A program made the position numbers and the translations under genes. Shown one piece after another: positions 29,952 through 37,306 of a stretch of 38,566 bases of DNA. The notes beneath the pieces were generated by a model, which worked only from the letters and a program-made list of their open reading frames with translations, did no database searches and was not told the origin of the DNA. Each line of letters opens with the position of its first letter. Position 1 is the first letter of the stretch. This DNA comes from Microcaldota archaeon (GTDB taxonomy: Archaea > Micrarchaeota > Micrarchaeia > Micrarchaeales > CABMGC01): positions 1-38,566 of the forward strand of contig JAJZRI010000006.1 in the NCBI GenBank assembly GCA_021802765.1, given 5' to 3'.

Positions 29952-30392
29952 ATGTACGACCTTCCAAGATTGAGCAATGACTTATGCGCTGTTCTCGTGC
30001 GTTCAAGGCACGGAAACGCAAAACTCATCGAACAGGCTAAAAGGATGTCTGTGGGCAGCGAGTTCGTTGTCGTGCTAGAACCAATCAAAGGGATAGAAAA
30101 CAGGTTGCTGCCCGCGTACCTTGGTGCGGCAATAAGGCAATCGGAAGGCGTAATGCATTCAAGCTCCCTTTCAATGGAAATAATACTGTTTGCTGCCGGG
30201 ACTATGAACATAGGAAAGGCACTTGAGACTGCAGTTGCAAGAGGCGATGAGTTCGTGCTGTTTGCAAGCAGAACCAGGTACCTCAATTATCTAGAATCAA
30301 GATTCAATCTTGTCGTTGTGAAGAAGTACGATCTTTGCATATCTGAAGTCAGCGGTCAGGTTGCAATAACGGCAATCAGAGATGATAAATGA
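29952..30392 (+). CDS. cgi121: KEOPS complex subunit Cgi121
   Basis: A 146-residue protein of the Cgi121/TPRKB family, which helps KEOPS bind tRNA for t6A modification. The diagnostic part is SLSMEIILFAAGTMNIGKAL with following DEFVLFASR, matching the family's 'E.lL.laGtr.I..Ai' helix-strand. The frame begins with ATG 29952, with GGTGCA six bases upstream. Other KEOPS genes (Kae1, Bud32, Pcc1) are not in the window; the RIO kinase at 32657 is RIO1, not Bud32. Its 3' end overlaps the convergent phosphate transporter by 17 bp. Confidence 0.75.
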   Translation: MYDLPRLSNDLCAVLVRSRHGNAKLIEQAKRMSVGSEFVVVLEPIKGIENRLLPAYLGAAIRQSEGVMHSSSLSMEIILFAAGTMNIGKALETAVARGDEFVLFASRTRYLNYLESRFNLVVVKKYDLCISEVSGQVAITAIRDDK

Positions 30393-31308
30393 AGGCTGTG
30401 GCTGCGAATCCAAGTATAAGGCTCACCAGTGCCGTAAGCACCCACGCGATTATTATATCGAACATCGGCCTCTTCCTTATTAACCTGGTCTTATATCCAA
30501 GCCCCGCTCCGTAAAGGCTGGCAGTAAATACCTGCGTGTTCGATACGGGTATGCTAAAGACTGTCGCCATCTCAACTATTATAACGGATGCGCTCTGAGT
30601 TACAAGGGCATTTAGATATCTTACTGGTATTATGTCTGATCCTATCGTTCTTAGTTCTCCGCTGCTAAGCAGGAATCCGCCCAAAACCATTGCAATCAGG
30701 ACTATTATCTCCGAGTATAGTGAATTAGTTATTCCTTCCACAGCGACAAAGAGGAAGCCTATAGTGTTTGCTCCAAGCACGAATGCTGTAAGGAAGGAAG
30801 CTACCACCAGAAGCAACTTTATATTTCGTATTGATCGCCATATATTCGCTTTTATCAGCGAATCCCTCAGTATCCTCATTGATGCAAGCACTCCGAATAT
30901 CACAACAACGGTCGAGACCACCCAGAATCCGATCATATACGATACGAAATGCAGGTCGGATACGTCGCCGTATGCAAGGCTTATCCCTATTATGGCCATG
31001 GCAAAGGTTATGGAGAAGGACTGCGGAATCCTTACCAGGTGAGCGGCTATGAATACAATCAGCGCAACAACTAGCGCTATCACAACAAGAACCTCCGACT
31101 GAACCGGCATTAGCGCTATCAATCCTGTGCGCAGCAGGTTGCCTTCCAAAAGAAATCCGGCTATGTATCCTGCAACTGCAATGGTTATGCCCGTCTTCCT
31201 GTCCACCACGCCTCCAGATATTATTGCACCGCTGCATGCTGATAAGTTATTGCCGCATATCAATGCAACGAGTAAGAACAGAAGGGGGTATATCAGCGCA
31301 CCTATCAA
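30376..31308 (-). CDS. pit: PiT-family inorganic phosphate transporter
   Basis: A 310-residue membrane protein with about nine helices. The two PiT signatures are present in duplicated-fold order: CGNNLSACSGAIISGG near residue 18, and later FSIPVSNTQVFTASLYGAGLG near residue 258. AFVLGANTIGFLFVA marks the start of the second half. It imports phosphate with a cation. TTG 31308 has AGTGAT three bases upstream, just after the DUF47 stop. DUF47 and PiT side by side are a common pair in archaea and bacteria. Confidence 0.9.
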   Translation of the reverse strand: MIGALIYPLLFLLVALICGNNLSACSGAIISGGVVDRKTGITIAVAGYIAGFLLEGNLLRTGLIALMPVQSEVLVVIALVVALIVFIAAHLVRIPQSFSITFAMAIIGISLAYGDVSDLHFVSYMIGFWVVSTVVVIFGVLASMRILRDSLIKANIWRSIRNIKLLLVVASFLTAFVLGANTIGFLFVAVEGITNSLYSEIIVLIAMVLGGFLLSSGELRTIGSDIIPVRYLNALVTQSASVIIVEMATVFSIPVSNTQVFTASLYGAGLGYKTRLIRKRPMFDIIIAWVLTALVSLILGFAATAFIYHL

Positions 31309-31315
31309 GGCATCA

Positions 31316-31948
31316 CTATGTTATTATCGATCTAAGGATGCTTACGATCATGTCCGAGGCATCCTGGCATCCGTCAAGCACGTCGTCGGCCAGGTATGCT
31401 ACGTTCTGCATATGGTAGAAGAGCTTGAAGTCAACATCCACCTCGAATGCATGGTCAAGCATTGCATCCTTTATCTCATCACCCTTATTCTCTATTTCAT
31501 ATATCTTGTGCCTAAGCGTCCTTGCAGTTATGATGCTGTCTGACTTGTGCATCTCATAAAGAAGCACGAGCGCCGAGTTTATGAGGCCGGAGAGCTCCAA
31601 CAGGTTCTTCTTTATGTAGGGGTTGTTTTCCCTACCACGTCTGTACCTGACTATCGCCCTGGCAAGATTGTATATCGTATCAACTATGTCATCTTCCATG
31701 TCCACGAATCTTATCATATCATCTATGAGGTTTGGTGCTATTGCGCCTGCGGTTATGGAGTAGGTTATCTCGAAAACCTTCTTGTCGGCAACCCGCTCTA
31801 TCTCCCTTAGCTCGTCAAGGTCCTGTGAGCCATCTATTATCTTGACGAGTATCTTGTTTGCAGCCACGGCCTGGTCTATGACCTCCTTTCCCATGTCCAT
31901 TATATGCTTCTCCGTGCTCCCGTCAAGTATCCTGTCTAGTATTCCCAT
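31316..31948 (-). CDS. DUF47 (PhoU-like) phosphate transport accessory protein
   Basis: A 210-residue all-helical protein of the DUF47/PhoU-like family, often coupled to PiT. Two repeated helical units begin MGILDRILDGSTEKHIMDMG; the family motif-like pieces are ELREIERVADKKVFEIT, FVDMEDDIVDTIYNLARAIV, KIYEIENKGDEIKDAMLDHA and MQNVAYLADDVLDGCQDASD. It likely controls or folds with the transporter downstream, seven bases away. ATG 31948 is two bases after the nuclease stop. Confidence 0.88.
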   Translation of the reverse strand: MGILDRILDGSTEKHIMDMGKEVIDQAVAANKILVKIIDGSQDLDELREIERVADKKVFEITYSITAGAIAPNLIDDMIRFVDMEDDIVDTIYNLARAIVRYRRGRENNPYIKKNLLELSGLINSALVLLYEMHKSDSIITARTLRHKIYEIENKGDEIKDAMLDHAFEVDVDFKLFYHMQNVAYLADDVLDGCQDASDMIVSILRSIIT

Positions 31949-34751: not shown

Positions 34752-34829
34752 CCTATAAAATACTGGCACTCCGAAAATCTGAAGATGCATTTAAATAGGA
34801 GGCAATTCAAAACTAGTAATGTGATTAAG

Positions 34830-35462
34830 ATGATGCAGAACAAGTCTTCAAAAGTTGCCGCAGCTACGTTGGTTGCAGCGCTATCGGCCGGACCTATAGC
34901 AGGTATAGCAGGGGCGTCAACAAATCAGGTGTACAGACCTGAATTTACTGAATTAAAAAGGCCGGAGGTTCATAAGAATGCCACTACAACGATAACGATA
35001 CATGTGCTAAGAGGCGGCGGTGTATCCGGACCTGAATTCAACGTGCTAAAAAATGCCGTGCTATTACTATACAACGGCAATACTGAGAAGGTGAGGCTTA
35101 AGAACGGCGAAGTAACTGTTAAAAATATTGAATTGGGCAATCAGCATGGCGGATATGATATAAGCCTGTGGGGCATAAATAAATCCAATCCATTTGCGCA
35201 GACACCTCTAAATGGGTCATCACCAGCATGGTGGTATTCTATGCATATTTCCGTAAGGGGGCCAGGAATCTCCGTGCTGCATCAGGTGCTCAGGCAATAT
35301 CCTGTCTCAAGTCCATGGATAATAGTCAGAAGCGCCGCCAAGAATCAGTCCGTATACCTAATCGTCTCAAAAGCAACGGCTGCAAATGCCTCTGCTTCTG
35401 CTGGGGCATCTGGCGCAACAACTACTACAACTACGGCGCAGTCAACTCCTGCAACGCAGTAA
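34830..35462 (+). CDS. Secreted protein with signal peptide and Ala/Thr-rich tail
   Basis: A 210-residue exported protein. MMQNKSSKVAAATLVAALSA followed by GPIAGIAGAS is a typical signal peptide. The mature part has beta-rich stretches (TTTITIHVLRGGGVSGPEFN, GEVTVKNIEL, GGYDISLWGINKSNPF, VRGPGISVLHQVLRQYP) and ends in a low-complexity Ala/Ser/Thr/Gln tail with no anchor. A few Asn-x-Ser/Thr sequons occur. It may be soluble outside the cell or held by partners. No family recognised. ATG 34830 is chosen because GTGAT stands four bases upstream; ATG 34785 is a longer alternative that would put 15 polar residues before the signal. Confidence 0.72.
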   Translation: MMQNKSSKVAAATLVAALSAGPIAGIAGASTNQVYRPEFTELKRPEVHKNATTTITIHVLRGGGVSGPEFNVLKNAVLLLYNGNTEKVRLKNGEVTVKNIELGNQHGGYDISLWGINKSNPFAQTPLNGSSPAWWYSMHISVRGPGISVLHQVLRQYPVSSPWIIVRSAAKNQSVYLIVSKATAANASASAGASGATTTTTTAQSTPATQ

Positions 35463-36273: not shown

Positions 36274-37275
36274 TTACTTCTTATGCATCTCTGCAGCAAC
36301 CTGCCTGACCTTGGCTAGCAGCGCCTCCTCTTTATTGTACATCTTGTCCACGAAGTATGGGGTGAACGGGCTGTACCTGTCGAATGGGAAGTAGAGGAAG
36401 ACCTTCTTGCCCACGCTGTGTGCATGCATCCTTTCGCTGTCCACTCCGCTAGAGTAGACTAGATTTGAAAGATGAACGACAACGATGTCTGACTGGTCTA
36501 TTAGGTGATAGTCTCGCCTTACCGTCTGGTTTGCTGCAGTCTGCATGATCTTGGAGTCATTCTTGTAGTTCTTGTAAGTGCTCAGGTCCACGCTCCTAGG
36601 ATCAAATACTATTGCTATTTTCTTGAGCCTTTTTAGGAATCTCTGCAAGTTCCTATACTTCACATCCTTGCTGCTCGTCATAGCAAAGCTTATGTACACC
36701 TTTATCATGTCGCGATTGTAAATGAGATTGTAGAGCGTCAGCGGGTCCTCGCCAAGTCCTATTAAATAATTTTCCTTTCCAAGCGTCTTGCTTATCAGAT
36801 CTGCGGTGTATATCTCGAGCTCAGACCATATCAGCAGCTCGTGCATGTCTATGCTCTCTCCTCTCCAATCTACCTTTCCAAATGTCTTTTCCAGCTCATT
36901 TGCAGTGGCTATTACTGTTATGAAAAAATCTGGCTTGAGCTCCTTGAAGTCGCTCATATCAAGCAGATTTATGGGTCCGTTCTTCCACCAGAAAGCCGTA
37001 TGCCCGTCTATTATATAATCTATTCCGGCATCTCTCTTTATCATGTCGTTTATCTTGTGCAAAGCATTGAGCTTTATCACATCAAGCACCTTCTTGTCAA
37101 GATGAAGCAAGGTCTTTGGAGTAAGCTCCTTATTGAGTCCCTTGGCGACCTCGAGCATCTGGTCGACCAGGTTTATTATTCGCAGCGTCTTTCCATGCGC
37201 TTTGGCAATCTCGGAAGCCCTGCTCTCTATTGAAATCCTATTAGATCCTGCAACAGAAGTGCTGAATATTATCAT
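36274..37275 (-). CDS. Adenylate-kinase-like domain fused to nucleoside deoxyribosyltransferase-like domain
   Basis: A 333-residue two-domain protein. Residues 1-190 follow archaeal adenylate kinase AdkA: RIINLVDQMLEVAKGLN, DVIKLNALHKINDMIK, IDYIIDGHTAFWWKNG (AdkA VDTHST region) and LKPDFFITVIATANELEKTF. The P-loop is degenerate: SVAGSNRISIE, with no GKT/GKS. Residues ~205-333 resemble the nucleoside 2-deoxyribosyltransferase/DUF4406 type: KVYISFAMTSSKDVKYRN, LIDQSDIVVVHLSNLVYSSG and DSERMHAHSVGKKVFLYFPF, including the S-G-x2-S-E helix with the likely catalytic Glu. ATG 37275 is 26 bp from TATA 37296-37306, leaderless. The domain calls are by pattern; the combined function is unknown. It lies between thrC and the methyltransferase. 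Confidence 0.6.
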   Translation of the reverse strand: MIIFSTSVAGSNRISIESRASEIAKAHGKTLRIINLVDQMLEVAKGLNKELTPKTLLHLDKKVLDVIKLNALHKINDMIKRDAGIDYIIDGHTAFWWKNGPINLLDMSDFKELKPDFFITVIATANELEKTFGKVDWRGESIDMHELLIWSELEIYTADLISKTLGKENYLIGLGEDPLTLYNLIYNRDMIKVYISFAMTSSKDVKYRNLQRFLKRLKKIAIVFDPRSVDLSTYKNYKNDSKIMQTAANQTVRRDYHLIDQSDIVVVHLSNLVYSSGVDSERMHAHSVGKKVFLYFPFDRYSPFTPYFVDKMYNKEEALLAKVRQVAAEMHKK

Positions 37276-37295: not shown

Positions 37296-37306
37296 GCTTT
37301 ATAACT
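37296..37306 (-). promoter_or_regulatory. TATA box of the AdkA-like fusion gene
   Basis: The minus strand reads agttataaagc, centred 26 bp before ATG 37275; it predicts a leaderless mRNA. Confidence 0.5.

Follow-up and report, generated by a model that had tools for sequence, protein, structure and literature searches.

The window, as we call the whole stretch of 38,566 nucleotides of archaeal DNA that was analyzed, carries on its minus strand a gene for a two-domain protein, in which an adenylate-kinase fold of the archaeal AdkA type, having lost its kinase active site, is followed by an N-glycosidase fold of the NDT/DNPH1 type. The fusion recurs among DPANN archaea and its genomic partner, judged from gene order and co-occurrence, is deoC. 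We propose that these proteins are deoxynucleotide N-glycosidases that would feed DeoC, and whose N-terminal domain would not act as a kinase, a joint reading toward which we lean with modest confidence. Both folds and the chemistry are already known and it is their combination that is new: the fusion, the rewritten kinase site and the coupling to deoC were not found in the databases and literature searched, and the surmise of the original prediction that the fusion is new agrees with the absence of the combination from every database searched. A survey of NDT-like (DRHyd) domains by Burroughs et al. 2015, which lies outside that scope, may already mention such a fusion.

The gene and its two domains

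36274..37275, minus strand: gene of the two-domain protein (P0001), 333 aa, stop included, ATG at 37275; from orthologs and the codon-position test
37299..37305, minus strand: TTATAAA, ~24-30 bases 5' of the ATG, a putative TATA box of archaeal type from which a leaderless transcript would arise; from the sequence
36715..37275, minus strand: first (N-terminal) domain, residues 1-187, an adenylate-kinase fold of the archaeal AdkA type lacking the kinase active site; from profile, Foldseek and active-site comparison
36277..36708, minus strand: second (C-terminal) domain, residues 190-333, an N-glycosidase fold of the NDT/DNPH1 type; from Foldseek and profile, with PF05014 sub-threshold

The frame at 36274-37275, which had been pointed out earlier with no strand given, is a real one and lies on the minus strand; its product contains all the motifs then cited, namely SVAGSNRISIE, DGHTAFWW, LKPDFFITVIAT, YISFAM, QSDIVVVHLS and SSGVDSERMHAHSVGKKVF. 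The gene is carried by a genome of 872 kb, to which Candidatus Micrarchaeota MAGs are closely related. Orthologs of the fusion gene in the genus and order are 59-99% identical, and in those of 75-80% identity the substitutions are concentrated at third codon positions; against L003 they number 41/37/150 at codon positions 1/2/3. This third-position bias therefore marks a gene that is real and selected, and on such codon-level evidence the selection is purifying.

Genes for a PALP protein and a methyltransferase adjoin the window gene, but the idea of a conserved operon was rejected as these neighbors recur within the genus only and the neighbors differ by clade. Elsewhere in the window a phosphate transporter PHO4 gene adjoins one for a DUF47/PhoU-like protein (30379-31948, minus strand). 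Another protein of the window (34785-35462), predicted to be exported and with a tail rich in Thr, Ser and Ala, is clearly divergent from its counterpart at L002:3317-3997 despite the fusion genes of the two genomes being 99% identical, which suggests fast evolution of the exported protein.

The full-length AlphaFold model of the fusion protein, built on a 20-sequence alignment, has a mean pLDDT of 85 and a pTM of 0.85. Its first half had been taken to be AdkA-like, and this holds: the Pfam AAA_17 model scores above cut-off in the window protein and is seen in 28 of the 29 family members, a profile of the fusion family matches the AdkA structure 6pjw with E = 1.1e-11, and in Foldseek searches of the PDB the first half retrieves archaeal adenylate kinases (6pjw, TM 0.86 by target length). 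With the NCBIfam AdkA model (NF003122/PRK04040), whose cut-off is 155, the window protein scores only 21 bits. The second half, earlier likened to NDT, retrieves the 2'-deoxyribosyltransferase 7o62 (TM 0.78 by target length) and then DNPH1 and BcmB, and the C-terminal domain modeled alone again retrieves 7o62 (E 1.6e-6), CtNDT, DNPH1 and BcmB. PF05014 scores 23.4 bits in the window protein, below its gathering score of 28.8, and reaches E <= 0.01 in 12 of the 29 members; as this threshold is the cut-off of a sequence model and does not define a structure, it is the fold that decides membership of the NDT/DNPH1 group. None of the NCBIfam and Pfam models spans the AdkA-NDT fusion. The comparison of the AlphaFold model with AdkA and NDT structures thus recovered both of the predicted domains, with a border near residue 188 and not at residue 200 where it had been drawn; neither a model devoid of the two folds nor a loss of the C-terminal Glu among orthologs was encountered.

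The former AdkA active site

37234..37257, minus strand: degenerate P-loop SVAGSNRI, residues 7-14, against GxxxxGK[ST]; GK[ST] in 0/29 members
36985..37002, minus strand: H92-W97 (HTAFWW), AdkA DTHxxxK site with an aromatic residue at the Lys position; F95 and W97 each in 28/29
36814..36828, minus strand: W150-E154 (WSELE); W150 in 28/29, E154 in 29/29, AdkA having Asn at the E154 position

We compared 29 aligned fusion members with 11 AdkA sequences, one of them the separate, normal AdkA of the organism itself (GTAGAGKST, G000:C10). The reference set shows R52 in 11/11, R56 in 9/11, K90 in 11/11 and R132 in 10/10 sequences. In the fusion family Arg is not among the common residues at the NMP-site R52 and R56 positions, the DTHxxxK lysine (K90) position is taken by an aromatic residue or Arg, the R132 position of the LID has become Trp in 25 of 29 members, and the P-loop glycines, the Lys-Thr pattern and the P97-G98 pair are lost; D90 and H92 of the DTH motif are mostly kept. 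AdkA as known (NF003122/PRK04040; 6pjw, 1ki9, 6ln3 and OdinAK, 7owe) has its fold and order of elements in common with residues 1-187, whereas the fusion has lost GK[ST], the arginines of the NMP site, the lysine of DTHxxxK, the PG pair and the majority of the LID arginines, and has an invariant set of its own, F95, W97, W150 and E154, which aligns with the old AdkA active-site segments.

The P-loop had been described as lacking GKT, which is correct inasmuch as GK[ST] is absent, but the Lys is not simply missing, for Arg stands there in the window protein (SVAGSNRI), and Arg or Lys occupies the position in 22 of the 29 members. This basic residue favors the notion of a nucleotide kinase with an unusual P-loop, and hence of a bifunctional enzyme, as does the AdkA of Methanococcus thermolithotrophicus (1ki9, GVPGVGGTT), which has Gly at the Lys position and indicates that the Lys is not absolutely required in AdkA. 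We accordingly discarded loss of the Lys as sole proof of a dead kinase and argue from the entire site, where the glycines and Thr of the P-loop, the two arginines of the NMP site, the lysine of DTHxxxK and the majority of the LID arginines have disappeared too; the organism also retains a normal AdkA elsewhere. A kinase of this kind is highly improbable. The N-terminal domain is AdkA-derived, and kinase activity is very unlikely from the residues lost, in agreement with the original suggestion that it may not phosphorylate.

As the AdkA residues holding both nucleotides are gone, classical ATP/AMP binding is not expected, though the conserved new pocket could bind another ligand. Most likely, as far as residue conservation can tell, the domain would serve as a regulator or lid, by ligand binding or by closure of the glycosidase site; through this the first domain may control the second. 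Alternatively, it could be a structural scaffold that fixes the assembly of the glycosidase and takes no ligand, which would be compatible with either reading of the C-terminal domain given below. The loss of all AdkA substrate residues from a fold that is itself kept (TM 0.86) fits such a scaffold, as does the trimeric state of archaeal AdkAs (PMC12548092), but an inert domain is not expected to keep F95, W97, W150 and E154 at the old active-site segments. Because these residues are conserved and align with the former active site, we prefer a new pocket or lid and consider the inert scaffold unlikely, if well worth keeping in mind.

Catalytic and phosphate-site residues of the C-terminal domain

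36694..36696, minus strand: Y194, Tyr of the catalytic triad (DNPH1 Y24), 29/29; equivalence by motif position
36598..36600, minus strand: P226, a Pro that follows strand 2 of the domain and may correspond to the transferase Pro, 29/29; equivalence putative
36511..36513, minus strand: D255, acid residue (DNPH1 D80), 29/29; Rcl and BcmB have their Asp at this alignment position
36433..36453, minus strand: SSGVDSE, residues 275-281, with S275 as the phosphate Ser and E281 as the nucleophile; from the Rcl/BcmB alignment
36364..36372, minus strand: S302-P303-F304 (SPF), P and F in 28/29; probably the region of DNPH1 S128' of the partner subunit

In DNPH1 the triad consists of Y24, D80 and E104, S98 binds the phosphate, and S128' comes from the partner subunit (PMC10603095); the phosphate-binding Ser is S87 in the rat protein (PMC3834327) and S97 in MilB (PMC4081090). 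In the deoxyribosyltransferase CtNDT, D82 faces the 5'-OH and E88 is the nucleophile (PMC10913048). In a profile alignment of the fusion family, D255, S275, G277 and E281 coincide with the corresponding residues of BcmB, a CMP N-glycosidase, and of rat Rcl, so that S275 is the equivalent of S98, S87 and S97 in DNPH1, the rat enzyme and MilB, and E281 that of DNPH1 E104. The Ser of the fusion, that of DNPH1 and MilB, and CtNDT D82 each stand six residues before the nucleophile. Position 275 is Ser in 27 and Thr in two of the 29 members, which means that the Asp/Asn contacting the 5'-OH in nucleoside transferases is replaced by Ser/Thr throughout; G277 is invariant. E281 is likewise found in all 29 relatives, bearing out the earlier remark that the catalytic Glu is kept. 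Ser/Thr275 gives the fusion family the signature of an enzyme acting on nucleotides rather than nucleosides, and from this residue and the invariant triad the C-terminal domain looks active and nucleotide-directed.

The domain shares with DNPH1/Rcl, MilB and BcmB the fold, the Tyr-Asp-Glu triad and the phosphate Ser six residues before the Glu, and differs from them in standing behind an AdkA domain and in sequence, with 13-20% identity in the Foldseek alignments. With the NDT proteins (PF05014; 7o62, CtNDT 8pqr, LlNDT 9ezk), which provide the closest fold matches, it shares the triad and the invariant Pro, and differs in having Ser/Thr275 where CtNDT has D82 facing the 5'-OH, and in falling below the Pfam cut-off. 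The region of the DNPH1 E55/H56 helix, which is concerned with water activation, reads FDPR in the fusion, by an approximate placement, with P226 invariant; DNPH1 probably has its water-activating E55 where the fusion has a Pro. A Pro that may be that of the transferases, where DNPH1 uses E55 for hydrolysis, counts against a simple hydrolase.

This raises the main rival to hydrolysis, namely that the domain is a nucleotide base-exchange enzyme, a phosphodeoxyribosyltransferase like the phage protein DmtZ, which would serve salvage by replacing the base of a dNMP with another one, with hydrolysis as a mere side reaction. The Pro, present in all 29 members, is reported to be conserved in all known transferases (PMC12884076), the nearest folds are those of 2'-deoxyribosyltransferases, and DmtZ itself joins a 5'-phosphate pocket to transferase features; Borrelia, which is also auxotrophic, is reported to salvage purines via a deoxyribosyltransferase. 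Against this, the match of P226 to the transferase Pro is a putative one by sequence position, and the DmtZ variant P57A retained both activities by HPLC, which makes the Pro weak evidence for a transferase. Taken with the deoC operons described below, we hold base exchange to be rather unlikely, the least remote of the competitors to hydrolysis. DmtZ and DmtZ-DutZ of Z-DNA phages (PMC12884076) are comparable to the fusion in that an NDT-like domain acting on dNMP is sometimes fused to another nucleotide enzyme domain; in DmtZ-DutZ, however, the partner is an active dUTPase-type domain and there is no AdkA, whereas the partner in the fusion is probably a dead kinase.

Distribution, the deoC link and a proposed pathway

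A scan of 84,980 genomes was carried out with two peptides specific to the close clade as query. Near-full-length relatives of the fusion occur in 14 of 301 Micrarchaeota genomes, along with fragments, and others are found in Parvarchaeota/Nanoarchaeota MAGs: in the phylum of one Parvarchaeota-type MAG, 29 of 371 genomes contain a matching sequence, with identities as low as 16% and with some few of the matches being fragments at contig edges. The survey of DPANN genomes suggested with the original prediction hence reveals a recurrent family. In a FastTree phylogeny, whose deep support is low, the Micrarchaeota clade has Parvarchaeota-type sequences as its neighbors, while L011, a Micrarchaeota copy of a second kind, clusters with another nanoarchaeal sequence; this suggests that the fusion gene may have been transferred among DPANN.

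In two genomes, G006 (L005:185-1254) and G053 (L011:776-1399), IS630-type transposase-like and TnpB-like frames, recognized by eye, flank the fusion gene, and such mobile-element-like flanks are consistent with horizontal movement. Decayed copies were seen in G003 (L012:1501-1740), where the first 80 codons only are followed by stops, and in G020 (L103, contig position 3139-3252), where a C-terminal remnant contains a stop; some relatives are thus in the course of losing the gene. A viral origin was rejected, as there are no relatives in IMG/VR (searched by peptide patterns) or phages, and a plasmid origin likewise, as there are none among plasmids; in both cases matches at E >= 1 are at chance level.

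The genomic context of the fusion gene includes deoC. In L078 the fusion start lies within the end of deoC (ATGA), whereas in L084 it is the fusion gene whose end runs into the start of deoC (ATGA). In L096, which comes from a Micrarchaeon and has a fusion protein sharing 59% identity with that of the window, the end of deoC again overlaps the fusion start (TGATG). These loci belong to three separate clades of the tree and represent both gene orders; three immediate neighbors among 24 pairs would seldom arise by chance (2e-5, assuming ~900 genes per genome). A deoC above the TIGR00126 cut-off is present in 14 of 29 fusion genomes and in nine of 342 others of one phylum (Fisher 5e-12); for the phylum to which the window belongs, the counts of genomes with deoC are seven of 15 against three of 286 (2e-8). 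Both p-values are inflated by shared descent. Within the genus of the window the association is not significant, and in Micrarchaeota outside this genus it is weak (p = 0.07). The genome of the window has its deoC on another contig (G000:C14), with the aldolase motifs FIKTS and GIKASGG. On this evidence deoC is the genomic partner of the fusion gene, and it supplies the substrate and pathway reading that was absent from the original prediction.

In other members the fusion gene has a gene for DHFR, thymidine kinase or cytidine deaminase nearby. The genome of the window has no PF00591 phosphorylase, which likewise favors the link to deoC. Against it, deoC is missing from roughly half of the genomes with a fusion, and the incompleteness of MAGs may not explain all of these; moreover, a PNP-family phosphorylase is present in 24 of the 28 genomes checked and might supply deoxyribose phosphate by a different route. 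A second NDT-like protein (YLAGSFF, GQGSSAEAGIA, recognized by eye; no Pfam match) is encoded beside a thymidine kinase and the fusion at L079:3318-4031, and in the genome of the window deoC adjoins a same-strand ORF which by eye resembles DNA-3-methyladenine glycosylase I (L095:3071-4499).

TIR/DRHyd domains are relatives of the NDT fold, and NDT-like (DRHyd) domains have been discussed in papers on conflict systems. An immune or signaling effector that destroys NAD or nucleotides and is switched by an AdkA-like sensor could thus be envisaged, and the patchy occurrence of the fusion and its decay in some genomes would agree with it. No PADLOC model matches any of the 29 members, on which ground a defense system was rejected; the neighbors are housekeeping or nucleotide-metabolism genes, and the deoC operons fit catabolism. 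We regard an effector as improbable. The same operons point to release of deoxyribose phosphate, which speaks against base exchange and for the glycosidase that we favor.

In the proposed reaction E281 would attack C1' of a (2'-deoxy)nucleoside 5'-monophosphate with the assistance of D255 and Y194, while S275 would hold the 5'-phosphate. The base would be released and the sugar-enzyme ester hydrolyzed to 2-deoxyribose 5-phosphate, which DeoC would split into acetaldehyde and glyceraldehyde 3-phosphate, and the former AdkA domain, no longer phosphorylating, would be a regulator or lid of the glycosidase. It is from residue conservation and gene context that we infer the substrate, hydrolysis as against base exchange, the cellular pathway and any role of the N-terminal domain. 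The deoxyribose catabolism of Thermococcus (PNP, phosphopentomutase and DERA; PMC11641776) likewise ends in deoxyribose 5-phosphate aldolase, but the route proposed here would differ in leading from dNMP to deoxyribose 5-phosphate in one step, with neither phosphorylase nor mutase. More tentatively, and short of what we would call probable, the rebuilt AdkA cleft may be a ligand sensor (F95/W97/W150 and E154) that gates the glycosidase, and together with DeoC it might give DPANN a route free of phosphorylase and mutase from dNMPs to bases, acetaldehyde and glyceraldehyde 3-phosphate.

According to Chen et al., Micrarchaeota and Parvarchaeota cannot make nucleotides de novo and presumably obtain them from a host or the environment, and Parvarchaeota may use acetaldehyde from deoxyribose-phosphate aldolase (PMC5864196). 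By the proposed pathway, scavenged DNA would yield both a salvageable base and fermentable carbon for the cell. In the fusion a whole kinase active site has been erased and rewritten, with the fold kept, ahead of a new enzyme. If the proposal is true, the family offers DPANN without de novo nucleotide synthesis a one-step source of the DeoC substrate, and the window encodes a protein of a tiny, symbiont-type archaeon that probably cuts the bases off DNA building blocks, leaving the sugar to be used for energy.
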